From: Bacteroidetes bacterium HGW-Bacteroidetes-3
GTDB taxonomy: Bacteria; Bacteroidota; Bacteroidia; Flavobacteriales; Flavobacteriaceae
Reading direction: 5' to 3'
DNA: 34,503 nucleotides
NCBI GenBank assembly: GCA_002842505.1
Contig: PHDE01000011.1
Location: 1 to 34,503, forward strand
Position 1 is the first letter of the stretch. Every line of letters starts with the position of its first letter. The translations under genes were made by a program, and so were the position numbers. Positions 18,637 through 34,503 of the stretch are shown here, piece by piece. A model generated the notes under the pieces. The model saw nothing but the letters and a program-made list of their open reading frames with translations, was not told the DNA's origin and made no database searches.

Positions 18637-19530
18637 TTAAAATCCATTTAAAAACGCATCAATTTCTGATTGATGAATTGTTGGGTTTGCTCCTTCATAT
18701 TGAGCTACAATTGCACCTACTGCACAAGCAAAATTAAGAGCATATTGAGGGTCTTTTTTATCGGATAGATTCACAACTAGAGAGGCTAAAAATGAATCTC
18801 CAGAACCTACTGTGTCAATCACTTTTACTTTAAATCCGCAATTATAATAGAATTTATTTTCCCAATATAATACGGCTCCATGAGATCCTAAGGTAACACA
18901 AATGGCATCTGTATCGGTTTCCTTAGCAATGAATTTTATATTTTGTTCCAGCGATTTGTGCATTGACTTTAAATAGCCGGCAATTTCAAATAACTCATCA
19001 TCGTTAAATTTTATGAAATTAGCGTCATTCATTAAATCTATTAAGGTTTTTTGAGTGTAGTGGGGCACCCTTAAATTAACATCAAAAATTTTATAGTTAG
19101 CAACCTCTAATAATTGTTTTAATGTATTTCGTGAAACAGCATCTCTTGATGCCAGACTGCCGTATATAAAAAAATCAGCTTCTTCCACTATTGAAGTATT
19201 TGTTACAGATGGTTCAATTTTATCCCAGGCTGAAGGATAATGAATATCATAAGATGCGTTTCCCTTTTCATTCAAAATTACATTCACCATTCCTGTTGGG
19301 TACTCATTTTTTATTTCAATGGTTTTTGTATTAATTCCTAAATCTTTTATATAGGCTATCAATTCTCTTCCATTGCTATTGCTTCCAACAGCACTAATTA
19401 TGGAGACATCTCCTCCTAGAGACTTAATCCTTGAAGCCACATTTAAAGGGGCGCCACCAATTTTTTTGTGCTCAAGAAAAACATCAAATAGAATTTCTCC
19501 AAAACAAACAGCTTTCAATTTTTTGTTCAT
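18637..19530 (-). CDS. Fructokinase-like PfkB carbohydrate kinase
   Basis: This 297-residue ribokinase-family protein would phosphorylate fructose freed by the GH32 enzyme, giving fructose-6-phosphate (fructokinase type). The N-terminal substrate motif is GGAPLNVA, and the ATP/anion-hole motif DTVGSGDSF carries the catalytic base Asp245. Length is normal. No signal peptide is present, so it is cytoplasmic. It is the intact kinase of the locus; a truncated copy of its first ~88 codons lies at 21581-21922. A hairpin (19590-19607) inherited from the end of a susD gene stands 60 bp upstream, so expression needs read-through or a promoter in the short gap. GH36 follows after 12 bp. Confidence 0.9.
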   Translation of the reverse strand: MNKKLKAVCFGEILFDVFLEHKKIGGAPLNVASRIKSLGGDVSIISAVGSNSNGRELIAYIKDLGINTKTIEIKNEYPTGMVNVILNEKGNASYDIHYPSAWDKIEPSVTNTSIVEEADFFIYGSLASRDAVSRNTLKQLLEVANYKIFDVNLRVPHYTQKTLIDLMNDANFIKFNDDELFEIAGYLKSMHKSLEQNIKFIAKETDTDAICVTLGSHGAVLYWENKFYYNCGFKVKVIDTVGSGDSFLASLVVNLSDKKDPQYALNFACAVGAIVAQYEGANPTIHQSEIDAFLNGF

Positions 19531-19677
19531 TTTTTAATAATTTTTTTTATGCAAGTTAATATTTGTAGGTCTAAAATAAAATAAAAAAAGGCAGACATTT
19601 GTCTGCCTTTTTAACAATTAACTCAAACATTAAAATAATTAACCAAATATTACACAAAAGTTTGAATTTTAATACCC
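19262..19677 (-). repeat. 416-bp direct repeat, copy A
   Basis: In minus-strand order it comprises the final codons of a susD gene, the spacer with terminator hairpin, and the first ~88 codons of fructokinase. It matches 21654-22068 with about 17 differences by eye (roughly 96% identity). Most differences cluster in one kinase stretch (about 19315-19350), as expected for old divergence or partial conversion. Confidence 0.93.
19584..19612 (-). terminator. Terminator-like hairpin, copy A
   Basis: The 8-bp stem GGCAGACA-TT-TGTCTGCC (19590-19607) has A7 on one side and T5 on the other, so it would act in both directions. Here it stands between the susC/susD relict and the intact kinase. It is identical to the stem after the intact susD. 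Confidence 0.8.
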
Positions 19678-19810
19678 CTGTGATTTTTAATAACCAACAT
19701 TAAATTTTGTAAATGCTTTATCTAATCCTCCTGAAATAGATAAATTATTATTAATAACATAACCTGTTTCATAAATCTCCTCTTTCCAATCTGTATCACC
19801 AACGTTTGTG
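19668..19810 (-). pseudogene. Relict of a second susC fused to a susD tail
   Basis: The minus strand encodes NVGDTDW, then EIYETGYVINNNLSISGG, then DKAFTKFNVGY. This aligns with residues about 320-360 of the intact SusC (VGDTDWQNELYETGYV..., NDLSISGGSDKSFTLFNVGY). The DNA is only about 80% identical, so this came from a diverged paralogue. One T is missing after NVGY; restoring it continues LKITGVLK, matching LKNTGVLK. The match then ends exactly where the tail of susD (GGGTATTAAAATTC) begins. GTATTAAAAT is shared by both parents, which marks a deletion joined at ~10 bp of microhomology. No function is expected. Confidence 0.85.
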
Positions 19811-19997
19811 TATAAGCAGTGACGAGAATCCGAAGCGCTTCACTATCCCCTGAAACCAAACATAATTTGAAAACTAAACTACAAATTTATTCTGAACGCC
19901 ACCATTGATTATATACTTAATTGATGGTGGTATGGCCTTCTCCTCAATTAACCCATAATCTCTTATTTCAGTCATTTGTAGCTATACAAATCAATAA
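19811..19997 (-). other. Unassigned sequence between relict and serine hydrolase
   Basis: This stretch has no match to other parts of the window that I could see. It holds a 33-codon ATG frame on the minus strand (19874-19975, MTEIRDYGLIEEKAIPPS, then IKYIINGG), which I do not recognise. It also has an inverted repeat CCACCAT/ATGGTGG (about 19899-19931) without a T-run. It may be the remains of the flank carried in with the serine hydrolase. Confidence 0.4.
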
Positions 19998-21584
19998 TTA
20001 ATTGACAATTCTCCCTTCGAGCATCCGGGAATTTATGCCCATAAATTCTACATAGACTTTTGTTTCTACATGAACCTTGATCTCCGGACCATTCTCCTCA
20101 AAATGCAGAATCCAAACTTCGCTTCTAATACTTTCTTCAACGAATTTTATGGTTATTTCAAGAGTAACGGCATCAATCCAGGAATATTTTGATGCGACAT
20201 ATATTGGAAGAACTTGTGTTGGCCTTGGAGCATTTACTAATGTGTTTAATTTAGTTTGACTAAGTTTCCAATTATCAAGACCAGTAGTGAATTCGTGTTT
20301 TTCATTACCAAAATCAATTTGTATCCAGGCATCTGTATTTGTCATTGATATACTCAAAGTCTGGATTCCCGCTTCATTTTTCTCAATTTCGATTTTCTTT
20401 CTGGAAATCTTGGTGAGTAATGCTGCAGGGGTTGAAGATGATGTCCTTAAAGTGGATAAAGAGGCTATTCTCTCTGCCAATTCATCTGAAGCCTTTTTAT
20501 CTTCAGCCAATGGTTTATCCAACATGGCCGGAAGAAGATTATCCCATACCAGATTTAATTCTTCCTGCGTGTTTGCTGCCGAGGCTGTCAACACCACTAC
20601 TGCATCTTTTTCAGGCAATACGATGATAAACTGTCCTCCCAATCCATCGGCCCTGAACGCATTATTCCTGCACATCCAAAACTGATAACCATATCCCTGT
20701 TCCCAGTCATTCAAATCCTTTGACAGCTTATTCGGTGGATCGTTGCTCATGATTTGAAACGAAGTAGCTTCCTCAACCCATGATTTGGGAACAATTTGCT
20801 TGCCGTTCCATTCCCCTTTTTGCAATAACAATTGGCCAAATTTGGCCATATCTTCCGACTGAAGCTTTAATCCTATTGCGCCAAATGTATAGCCTTCGGG
20901 TGTTTCATCCCAACTAAAATTCTTGATACCCAATGGCTCAAATAACCGGAGCTTCAAATAGTCAACCAATTTCTCTCCGGTCGCTTTTTGAACAATGGCA
21001 GACAACATGAATGTTGCCATATTGTTATATTTAAAAACTGTGCCCGGCTTATTTTCGACATTGGAAGATAAAAAAACTTTAGGCCAATCCGTGGAATTTC
21101 TGACATTAAAGAGCGGATCTGTATCCATACCCGCTGACATTTTGAGAAGATCCTGCACGGTCATTTCCTTCATAAATGTAATTATCGTATCAGGAATGGA
21201 TTGCGGAAAAAAAACTGCAATTTTATCAGTTAACTTTAGTTTATTTTCAGCGATAGCAAGGCCCACGCCAATGGATGTAAAGCTTTTACTGGTGGAATAC
21301 ATGATATGCTTTAATTCTTTCCCATAGGGACTCCACCATCCTTCTGAAATGATTTTCCCGTGACGCAAAATGACAAAACTGTGAAGTTCATTCTTACCAT
21401 CTTCAACAGCATCGAGGAATTTTAAGATACCTACCGAAGATACACCCTCTGCCTCAGGGGTACTTAAGGGAAGCGCATTACTGGAATTTGCCTTTTTATC
21501 TTGAGCATAGTTGTGAGTGGAACACAAACAAACAAAAATAATTATCGAAAGCGTTTTGAGAATTCCGTGGATTGGATTTTTCAT
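19998..21584 (-). CDS. Beta-lactamase-fold serine hydrolase (class C / PBP4* type), secreted
   Basis: This 528-residue protein has a signal peptide (cleavage near NYAQ, residue 28) and a penicillin-binding-type fold. The nucleophile motif is STSK (Ser97, Lys100), the second motif is YNN (Tyr186, Asn188), and the third, normally KTG/HxG, is probably the GLGGQ segment. A C-terminal beta domain (about 400-528) follows. This broad family includes esterases, D-amino-peptidases and beta-lactamases; the substrate cannot be told. Inside a PUL a de-acylating esterase role is conceivable, but that is inference. Its ATG (21582-21584) overlaps the stop of the truncated kinase copy as ATGA. It sits precisely between the two broken halves of a duplicated locus and looks inserted. 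Confidence 0.88.
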   Translation of the reverse strand: MKNPIHGILKTLSIIIFVCLCSTHNYAQDKKANSSNALPLSTPEAEGVSSVGILKFLDAVEDGKNELHSFVILRHGKIISEGWWSPYGKELKHIMYSTSKSFTSIGVGLAIAENKLKLTDKIAVFFPQSIPDTIITFMKEMTVQDLLKMSAGMDTDPLFNVRNSTDWPKVFLSSNVENKPGTVFKYNNMATFMLSAIVQKATGEKLVDYLKLRLFEPLGIKNFSWDETPEGYTFGAIGLKLQSEDMAKFGQLLLQKGEWNGKQIVPKSWVEEATSFQIMSNDPPNKLSKDLNDWEQGYGYQFWMCRNNAFRADGLGGQFIIVLPEKDAVVVLTASAANTQEELNLVWDNLLPAMLDKPLAEDKKASDELAERIASLSTLRTSSSTPAALLTKISRKKIEIEKNEAGIQTLSISMTNTDAWIQIDFGNEKHEFTTGLDNWKLSQTKLNTLVNAPRPTQVLPIYVASKYSWIDAVTLEITIKFVEESIRSEVWILHFEENGPEIKVHVETKVYVEFMGINSRMLEGRIVN

Positions 21585-21922
21585 AATTTATGCGAATCAA
21601 AAGTTAAAAAATTAGATATATAGTATTGGCGGTAGTTTAATTTCGAAAACCTGCCCTTTTCTGTCAAAATTACATTCACCATTCCTGTTGGGTACTCATT
21701 TTTTATTTCAATGGTTTTTATATTGATCCCTAAATTTTTAATATACTCTATTAATTCTCTTCCATTGCTATTGCTTCCAACAGCACTAATTATGGAGACA
21801 TCTCCTCCTAAAGACTTAATCCTTGAAGCCACATTTAAAGGGGCGCCACTAATTTTTTTGTGCTCAAGAAAAACATCAAATAGAATTTCTCCAAAACAAA
21901 CAGCTTTCAATTTTTTGTTCAT
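21581..21922 (-). pseudogene. Truncated fructokinase copy
   Basis: The first ~88 codons match the intact kinase at 18637-19530 with about six substitutions, including Gly to Ser in the GGAPLN motif. After EKG the match ends, and 25 unrelated codons run to a TGA. The ATP-binding and catalytic DTVGSGD region is missing, so the product cannot be a kinase. The frame is open and translatable, and its stop overlaps the serine hydrolase start, so it could now act as a translated leader for that gene. Confidence 0.92.
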
Positions 21923-22068
21923 TTTTTAATAATTTTTTTATGCAAGTTACTATTTGTAGGTCTAAAATAAAATAAAAAAAGGCAGACATTTGTCTGCCTT
22001 TTTTACAACTAATTCAAACATTAAAATAATTAACCAAATATTACACAAAAGTTTGAATTTTAATACCC
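21654..22068 (-). repeat. 416-bp direct repeat, copy B
   Basis: The partner of 19262-19677 carries the susD tail of the intact gene, the terminator spacer and the start of the truncated kinase. The repeat breaks at CCCTTTT (21654) on the kinase side and at the susD stop region on the other. Confidence 0.93.
21974..22004 (-). terminator. Terminator after susD, copy B
   Basis: The stem GGCAGACA-TT-TGTCTGCC (21981-21998), flanked by A7 and T6-T7, lies about 60 bp after the susD stop. It would reduce transcription from the SusC/D operon into the kinase and serine hydrolase genes, a common arrangement for adjusting transporter-to-enzyme ratios. Confidence 0.85.
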
Positions 22069-23799
22069 AGGATTTTGGTTATATAGGCCCGCAGTAAAAT
22101 CTATTTCTCTTTGAGGTATTGGATAATACTCATCTCTACCTGCAGTAAATAAAGCATTTGAAAGAAAATCTCTTTTTGTTTTTTCAACAGCAAGATATGC
22201 GTTTAAAACAGTAGCCGCTTCCCCCCATCTCACCAGATCATAAAATCTTGGGCCTTCCATACCAAATTCTAATCTTCTTTCAAATTTTAAAGCTTTTAAT
22301 GCATATTCTTTTGAAGGAAAGGCAGGATATGTACCAATATTATAAACATCAGAAGCTCCAGCAGCTATTGATCTTGATGTGCTTGCGGCTGCACGTAATC
22401 TTACTTGATTAATAATACTAGTTGCCGCACCATATTGCCCCAATTGAATTAAAGCTTCTGCTTTAAAAAGTAACACATCTGCATATCTGATAAAATCTAC
22501 ATTTTTAGAGGTTCCAACAAATGGTCCTTCTTTTACATAACAAGAACAGTCAGGTGATTGTTGTTCTTTCATATTTCCAAAATAACCATATACGCCGGGA
22601 TCTCTTGCCCAACTAAATTTATAAATCATATCGCCTGTTACATTTACAGTATTTTTATACTTAAAGGGTCTTCCAGGAATACCAACAGTGTGGTCAATTC
22701 TAGGATCTAAAGTAATTCCTGCAGATAAAGGTGCATTTCCACTTCCATCTATTGAATTGAATATGTCAGAATTATTAAACGAGTCTAGTAGTGGCAATCC
22801 ATTCCCGTCTGTTTTAAAGGCGTTTACCATATTCTGGCTAGCCATATGAAACCCGCAACAACCATAAAGTCCTGTTCCATGAGGTGAATTAAGTCCGGTT
22901 ACAAAACTCACACGGCCTACTTCTGTACCATCATTTATGGAAAATTGAGCCGCCCAAATTGATTCGGGACCATTGTCAAAACCATCAAGGAAATTATTTC
23001 CGTAATCAGATTCTAAGCTTGCAATTACGTCATCTGCATAGTCAATTACCTCTTGCAATCTAGCTTGATTTATATTTGTTACTGCATGGGTCTCATTTTG
23101 TTCATAAGCCTGATACAATCTTAGTTTTGCCAAATAGGCAGCAGCAGCATTTTTATTTGCTCTACCAACTTGGTCTTGGGATTGTGGTAAATTATTATAA
23201 GCAAAGATAAAATCATCAGCAATTGTGTTCCATAAATCTTCATTTGATAAATCATTCGAGGTTTGTAAAATTTCCTCTTGTGAAAGGGTTTCTGTGATAT
23301 ATGGAATTTTATTAAACATCAATTTCAGCATAAAGTGGCAATGCCCTCTTAAAAACCTAAGCTCTGCAGTTCTAATTGTTTTGTTGCTATAATCGGCTTC
23401 AGGGATGTCATTAATTACTGATAAGGCAAAATTTGCTCTTGATATTGCTTTGTAAAAGTTTGTCCAAGTTCTTGGTGTCATCCAATCACCATAATCCGCA
23501 ATTGTTAAATTGTATTGTTCATATCGATCAACAACATCCACATCTCCTCTTCCTCCTCCACCTTTGTAGGCGTCATCAGATCGGACACTTCCATAAACCC
23601 ATTGATTGGTTAATGGACCGATCATTTCATCATTTGCTATTCCTGCATATGCAGCAACTACAAGTGCTTCCGCATTTTCAGCAGTTGCCACATTTTCGGA
23701 TGACAACACCCCCTGTGGTTCATAATTTAAGAAATCTTTATTACAAGAGATCAATACTATAATTGATAACAAGTAACTTGCTTTTATATATTTTTTCAT
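22060..23799 (-). CDS. susD: SusD/RagB-family outer-membrane glycan-binding lipoprotein
   Basis: This 579-residue surface lipoprotein has its lipobox at Cys19 (VLISCNKDF, with the family-typical N-terminus FLNYEPQG). The helical TPR-like scaffold shows segments such as RAELRFLRGHCHFMLKLMF and VDFIRYADVLLFKAEALIQLGQ. The tail is RRLEFGMEGPRFYDLVRWGEA and YYPIPQREID, both classic SusD endings. It forms the lid of the SusC channel and captures the oligosaccharide. It starts 11 bp after susC, so the two are co-transcribed, and a terminator hairpin follows. The binding specificity cannot be read from sequence; the flanking GH32 suggests beta-fructosides. Confidence 0.96.
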   Translation of the reverse strand: MKKYIKASYLLSIIVLISCNKDFLNYEPQGVLSSENVATAENAEALVVAAYAGIANDEMIGPLTNQWVYGSVRSDDAYKGGGGRGDVDVVDRYEQYNLTIADYGDWMTPRTWTNFYKAISRANFALSVINDIPEADYSNKTIRTAELRFLRGHCHFMLKLMFNKIPYITETLSQEEILQTSNDLSNEDLWNTIADDFIFAYNNLPQSQDQVGRANKNAAAAYLAKLRLYQAYEQNETHAVTNINQARLQEVIDYADDVIASLESDYGNNFLDGFDNGPESIWAAQFSINDGTEVGRVSFVTGLNSPHGTGLYGCCGFHMASQNMVNAFKTDGNGLPLLDSFNNSDIFNSIDGSGNAPLSAGITLDPRIDHTVGIPGRPFKYKNTVNVTGDMIYKFSWARDPGVYGYFGNMKEQQSPDCSCYVKEGPFVGTSKNVDFIRYADVLLFKAEALIQLGQYGAATSIINQVRLRAAASTSRSIAAGASDVYNIGTYPAFPSKEYALKALKFERRLEFGMEGPRFYDLVRWGEAATVLNAYLAVEKTKRDFLSNALFTAGRDEYYPIPQREIDFTAGLYNQNPGY

Positions 23800-23810: not shown

Positions 23811-26800
23811 TTAAAAATTAATGTTTAACCCTAGTGATAATACTGTTGGAACCGGTATCCTGTTTACATCTAATCTTTCAGGGTCAGATCCTACATAGCC
23901 TTTTGGAGTAAACCAGAATAGGTTTTCACCTTGCACATACAGTCTAAAACTTGTCATACCACTCCAGTTTTCAATTATTTCTGTTGGTAATGAGTATCCA
24001 ACTTGTAAATTTCTTATTTTGAAGTATGAATTATTTCTATATAGATAGTCTGAAGTTTGGGTGTCATTGTTAATTAATGACAATGCAGGAATATCTGTAT
24101 TGGTATTGGTTGGAGTCCAAGCATTTAATGTTCCAAGTCCGGCATTTTCTCTTCCTTGTACAAAATTATTCCAGAAAATAAATGGATCCAATCCAACTCT
24201 ACCAGCTACGCCAGAACCAAAAATTGAAAAGTCAAAGTTTTTATACCCTAATTCAACACGAATACCGTATTCCAAATCTGGCAATGTAGTCCCTAAAAAG
24301 TCTCTATCGTTGGAATCAATTTTACCATCATTGTTCAAATCAATAAACTTAATTCCTCCGGGTCTGCCCCCAACTTGAGTAGCATGAGCATCTACTTCAG
24401 CCTGACTTTGAAACAATCCATCTGTCTTAAACCCAAAAATCGTGAATTGTGAATGCCCAATGATTGAATTCTCAGATGTTCCAGGGTAGGCAGTTCTTAC
24501 CTCTTCGGGTAAATCTGTAATTTTATCTTTAAATGCACCAAAGTTGGTTGATACTGAAAAATGTAATTCATTTTCGAAGTTTTTAGCGTAAGCTAACGAA
24601 AGTTCCCAACCAGTCGTTTTAGTTGAAGCGCCATTTAAAAAACGTACTTGTCCTTCTCCAACAGCGGAAGCAATTGGAGGCTGAATTAAAATTCCATCAG
24701 TATTACGAGAAAAATAATCAAATGATCCTATTATTCGATTATTAAAAAGACCAAAATCAGCACCTACGTTAATTTCTTTTGTTTCTTCCCATTTTAAATT
24801 GGGGTTTGCTGCCTGTGTTGATACAAATCCTGAAGGTAAATTTCCTGTATTGGTTCCATTTAAATCGTATGCCGTACCTACATTATAATAGATGTTAAAG
24901 AAGTCTGGCTGAAAAACATTTTGATTAGGACCATATCTTGCTTCAAATAGCCCAAACCCTGCTACATCTCCAATAGATTGGTTACCTACAGTTCCATAGC
25001 CAACTCTTAATTTTAAATTGGACAAAACTTTATTATCAATTAAAAAATTTTCTTTACTAATTTTCCATCCAACGGTTGCTGCCGGAAATACACCATATCT
25101 ATTTTCTTTACCAAATCTAGAGGAACCATCACGTCTTAAAGAAAAAGATGCTAAATATTTATCTGCAAATGAATAGTTTAATTTACCGAATTGAGAAAGT
25201 AGTCTACTTCCCGTTGAGAATCCATTTGAAGATCTAGCTCCTGTTGCTGCAGAAAGTGTAAAATAAGATTCGGTTTCAACAGCAAAACCATCTGCTGAAG
25301 AAAGTAACGTATTAAAATCAGTTTTTATAGATTCAGTTCCTACTAAAACACCTAATGTGTGCTCTCCAAATTCTACATTATAGTTTAAAGTATTGGTAAA
25401 TGTCAAACTTGTATATTTATTGGTATCAAAAATCAAGCTGTTATTACTCCTTGTAATAAATCCATTAGCAACAGTAGGTTCTATATTCTTACTGCTATAA
25501 TCATTATAATCTAACCCAATGCTACTTCTAAATGTTAGGTTTTTCATTAAATCAATTTCAGCAAAAACATTTCCAAAAAAGTTTGTTTTTTTTGTATTAT
25601 CCCATCTATTGATATATTGCATAAGCAAAGGGTTGTTTCTATCTGAATATCCAGAACCGATAGGACCTGCAAATTCACCTGTACTAGTATAAACAGGGAT
25701 AGTTGGCGCTAAGCTTATAGCCAAACTTGGCGTAGGGGTATTTCCTACATCTTTAGCTGCCAACCTTTCATTAGATGTTGAAAACTGAGTATTAATTCCT
25801 ACCCTTACTTTGTCGTCAAACATTTTATAATTGCTGTTTAGTTTTACATTATATCTATCGTAATTGGTATATTTTAATACACCTGTGTTTTTCAAATAAC
25901 CAACATTAAAGAGTGTGAAAGATTTATCTGATCCTCCTGAAATAGACAAATCGTTATTGAAAACATACCCTGTTTCATACAACTCATTTTGCCAATCTGT
26001 ATCACCTACCGGTACATTGGTATCCCCTCCAACAAAGGGTTTTACAGAGACACTATTTAAAACGGGATTGTTGAAATCGCCATTCCAATCGAAATTATAA
26101 ATTTCACCATACCCACTGTTTGGGTCTGCATGATCATTTACAGATGCTTGAAAAAGTACTTGACCTCTTTGCTGCGCATTTAACATATCATAGCGCTGTT
26201 TTTTTTCTGACAAAGCTGAAAAATTGGAATTGAAGGTAATACTTAGTTTATCTTTATCACCTTTTGCTGAGTTTTTTGTTGTTACAATTATAACTCCATT
26301 TCCAGCACGTGCACCGTATATGGTAGATGCCGAAGCATCCTTTAAGACCTGAATAGATTCAATTGTACTAGGATTTAGACTTGCAAAAACTTCTTGTCTA
26401 ACGGTTGGTACACCATCAATAACATATAAAGGATCATTATTTCCTAGGGTGCTTACACCTCGTATTAAAACTCGACTGCTCGCACCGCTTGGATCTCCCG
26501 ATTTTTCAACAAATAAACCCGGTACTTTACCTTGTATTGCTTGCATTGGATTTCCGGAACTTAAACTTTGTGCCTCCAAAGAGGATAAATCAACTACAGA
26601 AATTGCCCCTGTAACATCAACGGCTCGCTCTCTGGTATATCCTGTCAATACTATGACTTCCAATGATTCTGCATCTGGTTCCATTACAATATTTATAACA
26701 GTCCTGTTTTCTACTTTAATCTGTTGAGTAGTAAAACCAATATAACTAAATACTAAAGTGGCATTTCCATTAATATTGCTTATCAAATAGTTTCCGTCAA

Positions 26801-26972
26801 AATCTGTGACAACACCTTTGGTTGTCCCTAACACGGATACTGATGTTCCAGGTAATGGGGAGCCATCTTCAGAAGATGTAACAACACCATGCACCTCAAT
26901 TTCTTGGGCTTGCATCGTTAGGAATGCTCCAAAGAAAATTAAAATTAAAATTAAAGCTAATTTAGTTCTCAT
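23811..26972 (-). CDS. susC: SusC/RagA-family TonB-dependent outer-membrane transporter
   Basis: This 1053-residue outer-membrane importer has a signal peptide ending MQAQ. A carboxypeptidase-regulatory-like domain (about 25-105: VHGVVTSSEDGSPLPGTSV, GVVTDFDGNY) comes next, then a plug domain (about 115-235: GNPMQAIQGKVPGL, IRGVSTLGNNDPLYVIDGVP, IESIQVLKDASASTIYGAR) and a 22-strand barrel ending in aromatic Phe (LGLNINF). It moves oligosaccharides into the periplasm with energy from TonB-ExbBD. It lies 15 bp after GH32 and 11 bp before susD. A diverged fragment of a second susC survives at 19668-19810. Confidence 0.96.
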   Translation of the reverse strand: MRTKLALILILIFFGAFLTMQAQEIEVHGVVTSSEDGSPLPGTSVSVLGTTKGVVTDFDGNYLISNINGNATLVFSYIGFTTQQIKVENRTVINIVMEPDAESLEVIVLTGYTRERAVDVTGAISVVDLSSLEAQSLSSGNPMQAIQGKVPGLFVEKSGDPSGASSRVLIRGVSTLGNNDPLYVIDGVPTVRQEVFASLNPSTIESIQVLKDASASTIYGARAGNGVIIVTTKNSAKGDKDKLSITFNSNFSALSEKKQRYDMLNAQQRGQVLFQASVNDHADPNSGYGEIYNFDWNGDFNNPVLNSVSVKPFVGGDTNVPVGDTDWQNELYETGYVFNNDLSISGGSDKSFTLFNVGYLKNTGVLKYTNYDRYNVKLNSNYKMFDDKVRVGINTQFSTSNERLAAKDVGNTPTPSLAISLAPTIPVYTSTGEFAGPIGSGYSDRNNPLLMQYINRWDNTKKTNFFGNVFAEIDLMKNLTFRSSIGLDYNDYSSKNIEPTVANGFITRSNNSLIFDTNKYTSLTFTNTLNYNVEFGEHTLGVLVGTESIKTDFNTLLSSADGFAVETESYFTLSAATGARSSNGFSTGSRLLSQFGKLNYSFADKYLASFSLRRDGSSRFGKENRYGVFPAATVGWKISKENFLIDNKVLSNLKLRVGYGTVGNQSIGDVAGFGLFEARYGPNQNVFQPDFFNIYYNVGTAYDLNGTNTGNLPSGFVSTQAANPNLKWEETKEINVGADFGLFNNRIIGSFDYFSRNTDGILIQPPIASAVGEGQVRFLNGASTKTTGWELSLAYAKNFENELHFSVSTNFGAFKDKITDLPEEVRTAYPGTSENSIIGHSQFTIFGFKTDGLFQSQAEVDAHATQVGGRPGGIKFIDLNNDGKIDSNDRDFLGTTLPDLEYGIRVELGYKNFDFSIFGSGVAGRVGLDPFIFWNNFVQGRENAGLGTLNAWTPTNTNTDIPALSLINNDTQTSDYLYRNNSYFKIRNLQVGYSLPTEIIENWSGMTSFRLYVQGENLFWFTPKGYVGSDPERLDVNRIPVPTVLSLGLNINF

Positions 26973-26987
26973 AATTTATCATATAGT

Positions 26988-28583
26988 TTAGTTAATATTA
27001 AGTTCATTTATAGTCAAGTTTTCGATTTTAAATTTGGAATTTTCAGATTTAACCGAAAAAGACTCAATCGGTTTTTGCATAAAGAATATTTCTGTCATTA
27101 CAGTTTCTCCATTATTAAAAAACAACTCTATAGAAGTTTTATCCAAAAGAAGTCTGACTTGAAAATCACTATGTTTTGTTTTAAAAGGAGCCTTAGATAT
27201 TTTAGGTGCAAATTTTTCTGAGAATGAGAGATCTCCTGATTTTGACCTATCAATAAAAAAATATTTTTCTTTATTATTTATTCCAAATTTTAAGTTTTCT
27301 CCTTTAGAATTTTGAAATGAAAAAGTATAAAGATCTTCTTTAAGGTCTTTAATTTTGAATTGAATATCTAAACTTTCAAAATTTACCAATTCATTGGTCG
27401 TCAAAATAATTTCCTTATCAATAGTTAACAACTCTTTATTTATGGTTTTTGAAATATAATTTGAAATTTCTTTTACAGGCAGTGAAAATATTCGATACTG
27501 ATTGTTTGTTTTAAAAAGCTTTAATTCTCTCGCAACAGTCATTGAACCACGCCATTTTTCTGTTGGAACCGCTTGTGCATATTCCCAATTAGACATCCAT
27601 CCCATAAATAATTTTCTACCATCTGTATCAGGAATGTTTGACCAAGTAACACCTGCATAATTATCTTTTCCAAAATCAATCCAAAAAGCTTGTTCTTCCT
27701 TTAAATCATTTTGAAAAGATGGGTCTAGCTTAAAAGTTTTTCCATCAAAATCACCAATAAAATATTGAGTACCGGAACCATCATTAAATCCTCCCGGATT
27801 TAAACTTTGTATTAATACCCATTTTACTTCCTCTGTGCCATCAACCAACATTGGAAAAAAATCTGGACATTCCCAAACGCCGCCATGTGCGCCGATATTC
27901 GTGCCGAAATCAGACAGCAATTTCCAATCCTTTAAGTTTTTTGAACCATAAAAAAAGGCTTTGTCTTGGGCTGCCAGTACCAAAACCCATTGATGGTGAA
28001 AAGCATCCCAAGTTACTTTTGGATCCCTAAAGTCTCTTATTTCTGGATTTTTAATTACCGGGTTATTAGCATATTTAGTAAAAGTTCTACCTTCATCTAA
28101 AGAATAAGCAATTGCCTGACTTTCCACGTCTATCCCTTCTTTCTTTTCTATTTCAGGGTCATGGTAAGTAAATATTGCAATTATTGGAGGATTTGCTTGA
28201 CTTCCAAAACCTGAAGAATTATTAACATCCACAACAGCGCTTCCCGAAAAAATATACCCTTTTTCATCAGGAAAAATTGCAATGGGTTGCTCTCTCCAGG
28301 TAATCATATCTGTACTTATCGCATGTCCCCAATGCATAGGCCCCCATACATTTCCGTCTGGATAATATTGAAAATATAAATGATAATATTCGTTAAGATA
28401 AAACATTCCATTAGGATCATTCATCCATCCCTTTTTAGGAGTAAAATGAAAATTAGGTTTGTAAAGTTCTTCTTCCGAATAGATCTTATCGTCATTCTGT
28501 GAAGTGTTTTTTTCGTCCTTAGGTATTTGTTTGCATCCTATAAATACAAACAATCCTAACATTACAAAAATTAAATTTTTCAT
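26988..28583 (-). CDS. GH32 beta-fructosidase (levanase/inulinase/sucrase type), lipoprotein
   Basis: This 531-residue enzyme releases fructose from sucrose, raffinose, inulin or levan. The lipobox ends at Cys17 (FIGCKQ), so it is anchored in the periplasm or at the surface. The five-bladed propeller holds the nucleophile Asp56 in WMNDPNG, the transition-state stabiliser Asp187 in FRDPKV and the acid/base Glu238 in WECPDFF. A C-terminal beta sandwich (about 390-531) follows. The SQAIAYSLDEGRTFTKY stretch resembles exo-acting members. Its start overlaps the MFS stop by one base (TAATG), indicating coupling. Whether it is exo or endo, and which linkage it prefers, needs structure or assay. Confidence 0.95.
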   Translation of the reverse strand: MKNLIFVMLGLFVFIGCKQIPKDEKNTSQNDDKIYSEEELYKPNFHFTPKKGWMNDPNGMFYLNEYYHLYFQYYPDGNVWGPMHWGHAISTDMITWREQPIAIFPDEKGYIFSGSAVVDVNNSSGFGSQANPPIIAIFTYHDPEIEKKEGIDVESQAIAYSLDEGRTFTKYANNPVIKNPEIRDFRDPKVTWDAFHHQWVLVLAAQDKAFFYGSKNLKDWKLLSDFGTNIGAHGGVWECPDFFPMLVDGTEEVKWVLIQSLNPGGFNDGSGTQYFIGDFDGKTFKLDPSFQNDLKEEQAFWIDFGKDNYAGVTWSNIPDTDGRKLFMGWMSNWEYAQAVPTEKWRGSMTVARELKLFKTNNQYRIFSLPVKEISNYISKTINKELLTIDKEIILTTNELVNFESLDIQFKIKDLKEDLYTFSFQNSKGENLKFGINNKEKYFFIDRSKSGDLSFSEKFAPKISKAPFKTKHSDFQVRLLLDKTSIELFFNNGETVMTEIFFMQKPIESFSVKSENSKFKIENLTINELNIN

Positions 28584-29908
28584 TATTTTACATTTTTTTT
28601 GATTAATATTTTACTTAATTCTTCTAATGGAACCCCTTTAGTCTCCGGCATCATAAAAATTACAAAGATCAATTGAAACGCCATCATTATTGCAAAAAAC
28701 ATAAAAACCACTCCCGCACCTATTGTTGAAAACAATGTTGGAATTAAAGCCGGTATTATTGCTGCTAAAAGCCAATGGGTTGTACTTCCAAATGATTGGC
28801 CGGAAGCCCTTAAATGATTTGGAAAGATTTCAGATATAAATACCCATATTACTGCACCTTGACCTATAGCATGTGCTGCAATAAATAAAAACAAGAATAT
28901 AGGAACCGCCATTCCTGTCCATCCCAAGAAAAATGCCATTGCCACAAGCGATAAAGATATGATATAGCCTACAGAACCTATATACATTAGTTGTTTACGG
29001 CCAAGTTTATCAATGAGAAAGACACCTAAGAGGGTGAACACAAGATTTGTAAACCCTATACCTATACTGCTTAACAGTGCTGTACTTTCACCCAATCCAG
29101 CTTCTTCAAATATTCTTGGAGCATAATATAGAAATGCATTTATACCCGATAATTGATTAAACATAGCCATAAGAAATGCGAGCATAAGAGGGAAACGATA
29201 TTTTTTCATAAATATATTTTCTCCTGGCAAGTCTCGATTGTTTTCTTCTGTTATTTGGAACATTAATTTTTCAACGTCTTCATCTGGGTTAATGATTTCC
29301 AAAACTTCTTTTGCTTCATTAATCCTAAGTTTCGAAATTAGCCATCTTGGACTTTTTGGCACACTAAACATAAAAATTGTATAAATTAATGCAGGAAAAG
29401 CTTCTATTCCCACCATCCATCTCCAATCGTTTTCTCCTATTCCACTTAAAAGATAATTAGATAAAAAGGCGACAAGAATCCCAAATACGATATTAAATTG
29501 GTATAAAGCTACCAAGCGACCACGATCTTTTGCCGGGGCTATTTCCGAAATATAGGCAGGAGCTGCTATGGTTGATGCACCAACACCCAGGCCTCCAATA
29601 AATCTGAACACGGCAAAAGTCCAGGGGTCATTTGCCAACCCAGAACCAATCGCTGAGATGGTATATAATATGCCTATTAATATTAATGTGTTTTTTCTTC
29701 CCCACTTATTGGTCGGAATTCCACCAAATATAGCGCCAACAACAGTTCCCCAAAGTGCCATTGCCATAACAATTGCACCATGAAAAGCATCAGACGAACC
29801 CCATAATAGTTGTAACTTTTTATCTGCGCCTGATATTACTACAGTATCAAAACCAAAAAGAAATCCTGCTAAAGCCGCTGTTATTGACCAAATTAAAATT
29901 TTATTCAT
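28583..29908 (-). CDS. MFS sugar:proton symporter (sugar porter family)
   Basis: This 441-residue inner-membrane carrier has 12 helices. Sugar-porter signatures are GFDTVVISG in helix 1, NKWGRKNTL after helix 2 (the loop 2-3 motif), PAYISEIAPAKDRGRLVALYQF after helix 4, QLSGINAFLYYAPRIF in helix 7, DKLGRKQL in the second-half loop and PETKGVPLEE at the C-terminus. It would import fructose, sucrose or another product of periplasmic digestion. ATG 29908 is preferred over a TTG two codons upstream. The stop overlaps the GH32 start as TAATG. It is the first gene of the structural operon, just downstream of the regulator. Confidence 0.95.
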   Translation of the reverse strand: MNKILIWSITAALAGFLFGFDTVVISGADKKLQLLWGSSDAFHGAIVMAMALWGTVVGAIFGGIPTNKWGRKNTLILIGILYTISAIGSGLANDPWTFAVFRFIGGLGVGASTIAAPAYISEIAPAKDRGRLVALYQFNIVFGILVAFLSNYLLSGIGENDWRWMVGIEAFPALIYTIFMFSVPKSPRWLISKLRINEAKEVLEIINPDEDVEKLMFQITEENNRDLPGENIFMKKYRFPLMLAFLMAMFNQLSGINAFLYYAPRIFEEAGLGESTALLSSIGIGFTNLVFTLLGVFLIDKLGRKQLMYIGSVGYIISLSLVAMAFFLGWTGMAVPIFLFLFIAAHAIGQGAVIWVFISEIFPNHLRASGQSFGSTTHWLLAAIIPALIPTLFSTIGAGVVFMFFAIMMAFQLIFVIFMMPETKGVPLEELSKILIKKNVK

Positions 29909-30154
29909 TATCAAAATATTTAAGTGATTGTAAGGTATTTTTAATGGATCACTATGAATTTTGATAATGTAACTAATTGTTATATTATTATTAATTATAT
30001 GTTAAAAAATACACAACATATTGATTTTCAGCATTTAAAAAATTATTGATTAATATTACGAAAACGATATAGGTATAATAATGTTACAGATATTATAATT
30101 TTGTAACACTCTTTTTTATTAATAAAAAAAGTAATTAAAGAAAGTTTGAATTAA
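29909..30154 (-). promoter_or_regulatory. PUL control region
   Basis: This 246-bp AT-rich gap separates the regulator from the MFS-GH32-susC-susD operon. It holds the inverted repeat TGTTACA-N13-TGTAACA (30082-30108) and a related site, TGTAAC-TAATT-GTTATA, at about 29968-29984. Both share the half-site TGTAAC/GTTACA and are candidate binding sites for the AraC-type output domain. No TAnnTTTG -7 element is clear on the minus strand. Confidence 0.5.
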
Positions 30155-30913
30155 TTATTCAGCTTTATATTCTTTTGGAGTGACCCCATACTTATTTTTG
30201 AAAGCAGTGGAAAAATAATTAGGAGAAGAAAAACCAGAAGCATAACCAATTTCAGCTATATTTAAATTAGAAGTTTTAAGCATTAGTGCAGCTCTTTCCA
30301 TTTTGAAATTATTTATGTAGTCACTTACATTAATTCCCAATATAGCCTTCACTTTTCTATATAACTGAACTCTTGAAATATTTAAATAGGAGGCAAGTTC
30401 TTCAACGGTAAAATCGGAATTTGCAATGTTCTCACTTAAAAATTCATTTAGTTTTTTTATAAAGTTTTGTTCTGTCTCTCCAAAATTTTGCTCGTCAATA
30501 ATGTCAAGATTATTTTTAAAATAATATTTTAATTTTTCTCTATTAAACAACAATCCTTTTATAGATTGAGATAATACTTTGAGATTAAAAGGTTTTGTCA
30601 AATAAAGGTCCGCGCCTGACTCCAGAGCTTTAATATAGGATTGTTGATTATCAACAGCTGTTAATATAATAGTTGGTACGTGAGATGTTCTTAAATCTTT
30701 TTTCAATATTTCACATATCTCAAAACCATTTTTTTCTGGCAAATTTAAATCACACACAATTATGTCTGGTATAATTTCCAATGCCTTTTCAATGGCATCA
30801 GTTCCTTGAGAGGTATATATATTATATTCTACGTCAAACTTTTTAGAGATAAATTCCAATAAATCAATATTGTCTTCAATAAAAAAGAATAGTATATTTA
30901 TCCTTATCCTCAA
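30155..30913 (-). CDS. Response-regulator half of the split hybrid two-component system (REC + AraC HTH)
   Basis: The frame has no ATG near its start; the first possible initiator is the TTG at 30913, inside the end of the kinase frame. A receiver domain begins at once (FFIEDNIDLLEF, phospho-acceptor Asp in IIVCDLNLPEKNG, TILTAVD, LYLTKPF). After a linker comes a two-motif AraC/XylS DNA-binding domain (FTVEELASYLNISRVQLYRK, then IAEIGYASGFSSPNYFSTAF and YGVTPKEYK). In intact PUL regulators of this class these domains are continuous with the kinase in one polypeptide. Here a T6 tract at 30881-30886 puts them in another frame. Independent translation is possible but would start within the receiver's first strand. 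Confidence 0.88.
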   Translation of the reverse strand: MRIRINILFFFIEDNIDLLEFISKKFDVEYNIYTSQGTDAIEKALEIIPDIIVCDLNLPEKNGFEICEILKKDLRTSHVPTIILTAVDNQQSYIKALESGADLYLTKPFNLKVLSQSIKGLLFNREKLKYYFKNNLDIIDEQNFGETEQNFIKKLNEFLSENIANSDFTVEELASYLNISRVQLYRKVKAILGINVSDYINNFKMERAALMLKTSNLNIAEIGYASGFSSPNYFSTAFKNKYGVTPKEYKAE

Positions 30914-32903
30914 CTGATTTGTTGGATAAATTAATATCTTCAGCTTCTAAATAATCGGCTTCTTCCACTAAATTAAGCAACGGCTCTTCTATAATATCTT
31001 TCTCATTCAAGTGCAATTTACCCTTTAGCAATGTTAAAGTAAACTCAGTTCCCTTTTTTGAGATAACCTCAATCTTCCCTTGGTGTAAATCAATAAAGTT
31101 TTTTGACAAATGCAATCCAATCCCAGAACTATTTCTATAATTATTAGAGCCTTGGTAAAATGCCGTGAATACATTTTGTAATTCCCCTTGAGGAATCCCA
31201 ATACCTGAATCTGCAAAACAGATACTTACACAATCAGCATTTTTATGGTCCTTTATTGTAATAGAAATTTCACCATTATTAGGCGTAAATTTAAATGCAT
31301 TGGATAACAAATTAAAATAAACTTTATCCATTAAATTTCTGTCTATATAGATTTCCAAATTTTCATTGGTAGTGGTTATTGTAAAATCTATATTTCTTTT
31401 TTTTGCTTCTCTTTTAAAATCTTGAAAAATTCCTTTTGAAAATTTCCAGATATTTGTTTTTGATGGTTTTAGTCGGAAATTATTATCTTCTGATTTTTTG
31501 AAGTCCAACAATTGGTTTATTAATCTTAAGAGTCTTTTTGAATTGTTAAAAATCAAATCAACCTCATTCCTTAACTTTTTATCTTTATTTTGAAAATCGG
31601 ATTTAAGAGATTCAACAGAACTTAAAATGAGGGTTAAAGGCGTTTTAAATTCATGTGAAATTCCTGTAAAAAAATTAAATTTAGCTTCGTTGTTTATTTT
31701 AATAATATTTACTTGTTTCGCTATTTGATTTCTTTGAATAACAATTTTTTGATTGGTTAATTCTAACAATTTCTTTTTCCTGCTTATTGTCACCGCAGAA
31801 TAAATACTGTAGAGCGCTAAACTGAATAAAATGATTAACAATACAGCAAGTATTTTAATCATATTACCCTGTGTATAATATTTTTCGTCCTGAATTTTTA
31901 TGACGTTTAATTGAGCTTTTATACTCTCCTGCTGTTCATCAATTTTATTTAATTGATTTTTAATAATTTCAGCATTTAACGGATCAATAATAATAGAATT
32001 TAAAATATTACTTTTAGAAAAAGGGTCATTTTTAACAATTTTCAAAGCAAGTTTTAAAGCTTCATTTCCTCCTGTAGGGTAAAATACTGTAGCTGAAAGC
32101 ACCCCTTTTTCCACTAGTTGAATTCCGCCATTGGAAGTGTTTAAGCCATCTACGCCAACAAATTGAATGTTTTTTTCCAACCCTAATTCTTTGGCAACTT
32201 CCCAAGCGCCAAAAGCCATTCGATCATTGTGCGCAAAAACAAAATCGATATTTTTTTCTTTTTTCAGTAAATTTTCAAATTCCTTCTTAATTGATATTGC
32301 CTCCCAATTTCCATCAATGCTGCCTATCAATTCTAAATGATCACTTTGATTTAGAATGTGGTTAAACCCTAAACTTCTTTCAAAAGCAGGAGAAGAGCCA
32401 CTTAATCCCTTAATTTCAATTATGCGAGATGTTTTATTGGTGGCTTTTAATAAAATATAATTTGCAGCATTTCTCCCAATCTCAATATTGTCTGCCCCAA
32501 CATAGGCCGTATAATTTTCGCTCTCTATCTTTCTGTCAATAATCAGAACTGGGATTCCTGCATTCATAGCTTTTTCAACAACCTCCGTTATTGGTTTTGA
32601 CTGAATTGGGGAAACGATGATAACATCAACTTTTTGCTTAATCAAATTTTCGATATCCTTAATTTGCTGTGCAATATCGTTATTTCCATCATAAAGCAAC
32701 AAATCCACTTCAGGATGCATAGAAGCCTCTATCAACATTGCCTTATTCATCTGCTTTCTCCAATCATCTGTGGTCATTGCCTGAGAAAAGCCGATTCTGA
32801 TTTTATGGGCATCTGATTTCTTGCCGCAGCCTGTTAAAAAAGCAACAAAAACTATGATTATTACAGATAGCTTAAATAAATATTTTGAAGAATAAAAATT
32901 CAA
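30876..32903 (-). CDS. Sensor half of the split hybrid two-component system (periplasmic binding domain + histidine kinase)
   Basis: This 675-residue protein starts at a TTG (32903): the in-frame codon two before it is a stop and no ATG precedes the signal sequence. A lipobox-like LTGC (Cys26) ends the signal segment. A LacI/ribose-binding-like periplasmic sugar domain follows (about 34-310; ASMHPEVDLLLYDGNNDIAQQ, FAHNDRMAFGAWEVAKELGL), then a membrane helix (about 345-368), HisKA with His417 in GISHEFKTPL, and HATPase (NLLSNAFKF, DSGIGIP, SSGIGLHL). This is the architecture of BT1754 of Bacteroides thetaiotaomicron, known to bind fructose and drive a fructan PUL. It stops at TGA 30876 by a one-base shift, just inside the receiver domain. 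Confidence 0.92.
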   Translation of the reverse strand: MNFYSSKYLFKLSVIIIVFVAFLTGCGKKSDAHKIRIGFSQAMTTDDWRKQMNKAMLIEASMHPEVDLLLYDGNNDIAQQIKDIENLIKQKVDVIIVSPIQSKPITEVVEKAMNAGIPVLIIDRKIESENYTAYVGADNIEIGRNAANYILLKATNKTSRIIEIKGLSGSSPAFERSLGFNHILNQSDHLELIGSIDGNWEAISIKKEFENLLKKEKNIDFVFAHNDRMAFGAWEVAKELGLEKNIQFVGVDGLNTSNGGIQLVEKGVLSATVFYPTGGNEALKLALKIVKNDPFSKSNILNSIIIDPLNAEIIKNQLNKIDEQQESIKAQLNVIKIQDEKYYTQGNMIKILAVLLIILFSLALYSIYSAVTISRKKKLLELTNQKIVIQRNQIAKQVNIIKINNEAKFNFFTGISHEFKTPLTLILSSVESLKSDFQNKDKKLRNEVDLIFNNSKRLLRLINQLLDFKKSEDNNFRLKPSKTNIWKFSKGIFQDFKREAKKRNIDFTITTTNENLEIYIDRNLMDKVYFNLLSNAFKFTPNNGEISITIKDHKNADCVSICFADSGIGIPQGELQNVFTAFYQGSNNYRNSSGIGLHLSKNFIDLHQGKIEVISKKGTEFTLTLLKGKLHLNEKDIIEEPLLNLVEEADYLEAEDINLSNKSVEDKDKYTILFY

Positions 32904-33239
32904 TGATTAAGTTTTTTTGGTTATCCTCCAAAAGTCGGAAGTTTTTTAAGAATTATATAGTTGTGAAAATTAGTGAAAAATAAAATCAAATTTAATAATT
33001 GGCATAAAAATATTATTTGATATTTTTAATAAGCATTAATTTTTTAGGAAGTTTCTAGAAAAAAGACAGTAAAGGTTGTGGTTCAATGAATAAATCTTAA
33101 TTTATCGGTTCATAAAATTTGGGATGTCTAAAATGCCAAAAGTCAACGGTCCTTAATTTTATTGGGATATAAAACGGCGCATCTATTAACTTTTCAGTAG
33201 AAAACGATTTTTTTAGCAAAACACTTTTTTTATTTTTAC
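32904..33239 (-). other. Intergenic region between mutS and the PUL regulator
   Basis: This 336-bp AT-rich region has no credible ORF. It should contain the end of the mutS transcript and the regulator promoter. I saw no strong terminator hairpin. Confidence 0.5.
32987..32994 (-). promoter_or_regulatory. Putative -7 element for the PUL regulator
   Basis: On the minus strand this reads TAAATTTG, matching TAnnTTTG. It lies about 85 bp before the TTG start. No clear -33 box was found. Confidence 0.4.
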
Positions 33240-34503
33240 TTACTTTTTAATAAGCATCCGCTTTATTTCATTCAATTTCATTAAGGCTTCAATTGGGGTT
33301 AGGGTGTCAATATTGGTGGAGAGAATTTCTTCTTTGATATTTTCAAGCAAAGGATCGTCGAGCTTAAAAAAGCTCAACTGCATGTCGTTTTCCGAAGCGG
33401 TTTTAAGGGTTTCTTTTACGTTAGCGTTGGTATGGTTTTTTTCGAGTTGTTTCAACATTTTTGTGGCTCGGTGTATCATGGAAGAAGGCATTCCGGTCAG
33501 TTTTGCCACGTAAATTCCGAAACTGTGTTCGCTGCCACCAGGAACCAATTTTCGCAAAAAAACAACCTTGTCTTTCAATTCTTTTACGGAAACATTGAAG
33601 ATTTTAACTCGTTCAAATGTGTTCGCCATATCATTTAATTCGTGGTAATGCGTGGCAAACAATGTTTTTGCTTTTGAAGGATGTTCATGCAAATATTCTG
33701 CAATGGCCCAGGCAATTGAAATACCGTCGTAAGTGCTTGTTCCCCGTCCAATTTCATCCAACAATACCAAATTTTTTTCGGAAATGTTGTTTAAAATACT
33801 GGCGGTTTCGTTCATTTCAACCATAAAAGTTGATTCTCCCATGGAAATATTGTCACTGGCGCCAACACGCGTAAATATTTTATCGACCACGCCAATTCGG
33901 GCGTTTTGTGCTGGCACGTAACTTCCCATTTGCGCCAATAACACAATGAGGGCGGTTTGCCTTAAAATAGCCGATTTACCGCTCATATTGGGACCGGTAA
34001 TCATAATAATTTGCTGTAGATTTCTGTTTAAAACAACGTCGTTTGCAATATATTCTTCGCCGATTGGCAATTGCTTTTCAATAACAGGATGCCTGCCGTT
34101 TTTAATTTCCAAATCGGTGCTTTCATCCAAAAGCGGACGCACATAATTATTTTGTTTGGCAACTTCGGCAAAGGAACTTAAACAGTCAATTTGACCAATC
34201 AATTGGGCGTTTAGCTGTATGGGCTGAATGGAATCCATCAACGAACTGATGAGTTTGGAAAAAAGTTCATTTTCAAGTTTGCTTATTTTTTCTTCGGCGC
34301 CTAAAATTTTGGTTTCGTACTCTTTTAATTCTTCAGTGATGTAACGTTCGGCGCTTACCAAAGTTTGCTTTCTAATCCATTCTTCAGGAACTTTGTCCTT
34401 GTGGGTATTGCGCACTTCAATATAATAGCCAAAAACATTGTTGAAGGAAATTTTTAAGGAAGAAATTCCGGTTCGATCAATTTCACGCGCCTGCATATTG
34501 TCC
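33240..34503 (-). CDS. mutS: DNA mismatch repair protein MutS, C-terminal part
   Basis: About 420 residues are visible, and the gene continues beyond the right edge; the ATG at 34496 is internal, since the frame stays open to the end and begins in mid-domain ([11 protein letters not shown]-type sequence). The clamp/core region with [12 protein letters not shown] comes first, then the ABC ATPase with Walker [14 protein letters not shown], the signature [11 protein letters not shown], Walker [17 protein letters not shown] and the H-loop LFATHYHEL. The C-terminal helix-turn-helix dimerisation part is present to the stop. The final ~90 residues are typical of full MutS. It recognises mismatches and recruits MutL. 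It is not part of the PUL. Confidence 0.96.

Follow-up and report, generated by a model that had tools for sequence, protein, structure and literature searches.

A hybrid two-component regulator of the BT1754 type, which heads a fructan locus, is spread over two reading frames on the minus strand of the window (the whole stretch of DNA analyzed here, one entire contig of 34,503 bases from a 3.55 Mb draft genome in 270 contigs with a contamination value of 3.95). Its sensor-kinase and receiver halves part at a run of six Ts, so that the window sequence yields no single chain for the fusion, whereas relatives do encode it as one. The most likely explanation is an ordinary one, namely that a BT1754-like regulator carries a one-base frameshift that is either young or an artifact. 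Specifically, we favor a one-off, recent lengthening of T5 to T6 in the DNA of the strain or population, to which we assign a probability of roughly 0.5.

A hybrid regulator split at its receiver joint

The sensor-kinase piece (30876..32903, minus strand; 675 aa) comprises a periplasmic sugar-binding domain (Peripla_BP_4, PF13407, E = 1.2e-47), HisKA (PF00512, 4.1e-14) and HATPase_c (PF02518, 6.2e-22), and ends in KYTILFY at a TGA at 30878-30876. The receiver and AraC-type DNA-binding piece (30155..30913, minus strand; 252 aa) lies in another frame, carries Response_reg (PF00072, 2.7e-17) and HTH_18/HTH_AraC (PF12833, 2.9e-20), and closes at a stop at 30155. Taken together, the two pieces present the domain order of a BT1754-like hybrid (sensor, HisKA, HATPase_c, receiver, AraC), as Pfam also finds in the intact loci L034 and L083, but not on a single polypeptide. 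On the minus strand the joint reads ATT CTT TTT TAT TGA, with the T6 run at 30886-30881 (30881..30886, A6 on the plus strand). Rechecking of sequence and coordinates bore out the split at T6 and the stop at 30876 given in a preliminary description of this DNA, and its arithmetic was right as well: the span from sensor to receiver is 2749 nt, and removing one base leaves 2748 nt, or 916 codons including the stop.

That description also held that the receiver half has no ATG of its own. We found none in the first 90 codons of the receiver frame, but a TTG at 30913 had been missed. Over these 90 codons the frame offers TTG at 30913, 30859, 30781, 30742 and 30706 and GTG at 30757; the TTG at 30913, which gives MRIRINILFFFIEDN, is the only start ahead of the receiver. 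Since it sits upstream of the joint, the second piece has a possible start that spans the whole receiver. The TTG of the sensor ORF (32901-32903) stands one codon past an in-frame stop in the window and in the closest (sister) genome alike, and thus looks like the only possible full-length start in both.

Among solved structures, the chain that best matches the sensor is 2x7x_A (E = 1e-67; table title SENSOR PROTEIN), which we take to be the fructose-binding domain of BT1754. From this match, the window's sensor is predicted to bind fructose and to induce its locus. PMC3404733 describes BT1754, which senses fructose for the fructan locus of Bacteroides thetaiotaomicron, as a hybrid two-component regulator encoded by one gene, with a periplasmic domain that binds fructose, and as being required to induce that locus. 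Both regulators combine periplasmic sugar-binding sensor, kinase, receiver and AraC domains, and both stand beside a fructan locus with SusC/SusD, GH32, a transporter and a sugar kinase; BT1754, however, is one gene, whereas the window regulator is frame-split at the receiver joint.

The fructan locus and its setting

As BT1754 does in Bacteroides, the split regulator heads its fructan locus, whose structural genes are all open. On the minus strand these comprise an MFS sugar transporter (28583..29914; PF00083, E = 7.1e-112; its ATG lies three codons inside the listed TTG ORF), a GH32 fructan hydrolase (26988..28583; PF00251, 3.5e-93), a SusC-type TonB-dependent receptor (23811..26972; PF13715, PF07715, PF00593), a SusD-type lipoprotein (22060..23799; PF07980, PF14322) and a PfkB-family, fructokinase-like sugar kinase (18637..19530), which reached NCBIfam ribokinase/fructokinase models at scores that were all below cut-off and whose sister copy is assigned to PF00294.

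A close copy of the regulator, with at least 58% identity in the receiver half, occurs in three of 38 Lutibacter genomes (G000, G021 and G012). Within its own genome no second close copy was found: DNA comparison gives just one other match, 39 bases long, and none of the four further protein matches listed covers the sensor domain. The neighborhood of the locus differs among the three Lutibacter genomes: the window has mutS (33018-34503), cut by the contig end so that just the C-terminal part is present (33240-34503), G021 has AAA_25 and an Eco57I-type methylase (L033, 1-3400), and G012 has an aminotransferase and a DsbD-like gene (L034, 14174-17765). These differing neighborhoods suggest that the fructan locus may be mobile.

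The kinase end of the locus also contains a 408-column duplication (21653-22060 versus 19262-19669; 391/408 identical) that takes in the 5' end of the PfkB kinase gene and the region upstream of it; what the duplicate retains of the kinase is a fragment of 113 aa (21581-21922). Between the two copies sits a gene for a serine hydrolase (PF00144, 19998-21584). The sister has a single kinase and no serine-hydrolase gene between SusD and kinase. By eye, the stretch from serine hydrolase to kinase (19531-19997) resembles a remnant of the C-terminal end of a SusC, as might be expected of a recombination scar.

Relatives read through the joint

We compared 54 homologous loci for reading frame and for the length of the T-run where the two halves meet. 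Sensor and receiver share one stop-to-stop frame in 48 of them (L034, L036-L072, L076-L085), upholding the earlier statement that related regulators are single proteins, and in all 48 the joint run is T4 or shorter. Because one frame is found in 48/54 loci, the pairing of sensor and receiver is more than chance juxtaposition. These intact orthologs, from Lutibacter G012, Flavobacterium spp. and Galbibacter, agree with the window in domain order and in a joint of the form KH/Y-x-L-L/V-IEDN, but each is a single open frame of 912 to 957 codons. The remaining six loci are L033 and L035, which are one sister record, three from Sinomicrobium (L073-L075), and L086, which had no match at threshold. 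No two-gene version of the regulator, one of two outcomes by which the preliminary description would have been refuted, was seen among the 54.

The Sinomicrobium loci match the sensor and the DNA-binding part only. In L073 (5010-6548), Pfam finds a sugar-binding domain of like type and an AraC domain, without kinase or receiver, which makes it a one-component version of the regulator; L074 and L075 show an equal match pattern.

The closest genome among those compared is the sister, Lutibacter sp. UBA8495 (G021; contig of 20,010 bases), and on this basis we take the genus of the window to be Lutibacter. Its regulator resembles that of the window (amino-acid identity 93.5% in the sensor, 90% in the kinase and 87.6% in receiver plus AraC; locus order the same) but has T5 at the joint, which reads through; there, window and sister are exactly one T apart. 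The only break in the sister's regulator is a run of two Ns over the H-box region. We rejected an independent loss of the regulator in the sister, as this apparent frameshift is an NN assembly gap and so carries no information on loss.

Both halves appear constrained

Between window and sister, dN/dS comes to 0.055 in the sensor, 0.083 in the part of the kinase after the gap and 0.066 in receiver plus AraC, while the five locus genes range from 0.033 to 0.120. Splitting the second half gives 0.026 for the receiver and 0.121 for linker plus AraC (interval 0.061-0.221), the highest value among the pieces, although its interval overlaps the others. All of these values are rough, since synonymous divergence is high (0.54 to 1.75; receiver dS 1.49, near saturation). 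Relaxed selection after the break was not seen by dN/dS (0.026-0.121), a measure that a very young lesion would escape. Even so, the receiver half has been constrained for nearly all of its separate history, and a simple calculation from the upper end of the interval (0.110) limits free decay to roughly a sixth of the window's branch or less. Strong purifying selection on both halves implies that the break is recent, artificial (an error) or harmless; with low dN/dS in the locus genes as well as in the halves, decay would have had no time to show.

Origin of the extra base

A recent T5 to T6 lengthening would place the frameshift precisely where the linker of a fructose-sensing hybrid regulator meets its receiver. 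Phosphotransfer to the receiver/AraC half could then not take place inside a single chain, and fructose induction of the locus would be lost or weak; the structural genes would still be open because the lesion is young. The preliminary description had offered a broken regulator with a locus that is dead or constitutively low. The regulator is indeed broken as a fusion, given one frame in 48/54 loci and a sister exactly one T away, but a dead locus does not follow, as the other locus genes are open and a TTG-started receiver half could be made.

Alternatively, the sixth T may be a sequencing, assembly or strain-consensus error in a genome that truly has T5 and an intact regulator, a reading that we consider possible but hold with less than even confidence. 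A single-base change in homopolymer length, T5 in the sister, intact selection on both halves, and a fragmented draft (the 270 contigs and 3.95 contamination noted above, plus N gaps, of 7 and 47 bases, in two of the stretches sampled) all speak for it. Conversely, T6 is a short run for short-read indel errors, and the remaining sampled stretches yielded no further break of this kind. This last point comes from an ab initio scan of 41 stretches of the window's own genome (504,090 bases, one stretch being wholly N) for same-strand frames that overlap and lack an ATG nearby. Among 65 pairs, the one overlapping pair without an ATG was the window's own. The scan flagged three pairs in all, but frames overlap in the window's pair only; in the other two, the downstream frames open 11 and 7 nt past the upstream stop and so could not be explained by a single indel. 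A closed control relative gave 0 of 27 pairs over 260,000 bases. The isolated break argues that the assembly is not grossly indel-prone, and we therefore rejected an error-riddled assembly as its source. The scan is of limited sensitivity, however: it passed 125 of 400 simulated single-base breaks (31%), its filter drops real frameshifts that have a chance ATG, and the gap-made break in the sister went unflagged, so that zero other matches in ~470 kb would still allow up to about 10 undetected breaks. The constraint on the receiver (0.026) would fit an error, or a second piece that is still functional, just as well as a recent mutation.

Such a functional second piece is the basis of a further, improbable reading, in which the insertion made a working pair: a membrane kinase as one protein and, as the other, a soluble response regulator started at TTG 30913 and translationally coupled to it across the 38-nt overlap with the kinase stop. 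The TTG-started frame would be a complete receiver, with strand 1 (INILFFFIEDN) supplied by out-of-frame T-rich codons before the joint. AlphaFold2 predicts this piece with a mean pLDDT of 88.3 and a pTM of 0.58, placing strand 1 at residues 8-12, and the model agrees with the one obtained for the native receiver of the sister (88.0 and 0.57, strand at 9-13). However, its first block reaches a pLDDT of 65 versus 72 in the sister, and the alignment supplied to the predictor consisted of native receivers, which favors a good model in any case. A fold search matched the TTG-started model to solved receiver domains, confirming the receiver fold only. The near-invariant residues D14, D55, T85 and K107 of the family, which we take to have catalytic roles in receivers, are retained; both pieces look constrained; and the sensor ORF likewise has only a TTG start, in the window and in the sister. 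Weighing against a working pair, none of the 54 loci encodes two genes, and the TTG is present unchanged in the unsplit sister, where nearby changes amount to ACC/ACT and the extra T, so nothing shows that it was selected as a start.

A reversible switch or recoding event, with the T-run varying in length in the population or with slippage of RNA polymerase or ribosome yielding some full-length protein, seems to us the least probable of these explanations. The T-run does lie at the joint, and CTT-TTT could in principle permit a +1 slip into the right frame; as described previously, the classical -1 heptamer does not fit, and a +1 (or -2) shift would be needed. Yet the run is ordinary for this genome and not unusually long, as phase variation would need: a genome sample of 185 open ORFs, each 300 codons or longer (279,306 bases in all), holds 255 T6 runs, and runs of six or more number 336 for T and 801 for A. 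The split gene itself has 14 A/T runs of six or more, 13 besides the one at the joint, including A8 and T7 in open frame. Nor is the slip site conserved among orthologs, which have T4 or less with an open frame in 48/54 loci and T5 with an open frame in the sister. In prfB the stop stands directly beside the slip codon; here it is not adjacent. No unusual stimulatory RNA structure was found in a 126-nt fold around the site under a pseudoknot-free model (z = +0.89; 156 of 200 shuffles at least as stable). We accordingly rejected programmed or reversible slippage, and the homopolymer switch proposed in the preliminary description is unsupported. In a mainly open-access literature, we found no paper that appeared to bear on split or phase-variable regulators of this kind.

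Implications

Should the extra T prove an error, the case illustrates how one homopolymer base in a draft genome can suggest a dead regulator. Its general interest is low unless the split proves to work, and that interest would then lie solely in showing how easily a hybrid regulator can turn into two proteins: a single base would have converted a hybrid, in one step, into a two-gene pair of kinase and response regulator, which would capture gene fission on the way between hybrid and classical two-component systems. If, as we favor, T6 is real and recent, the window would hold a natural case in which a fructose-sensing regulator was recently lost (or split) while the fructan genes below it stayed open, and would offer a natural test of what becomes of such loci when they are deprived of one-piece control.
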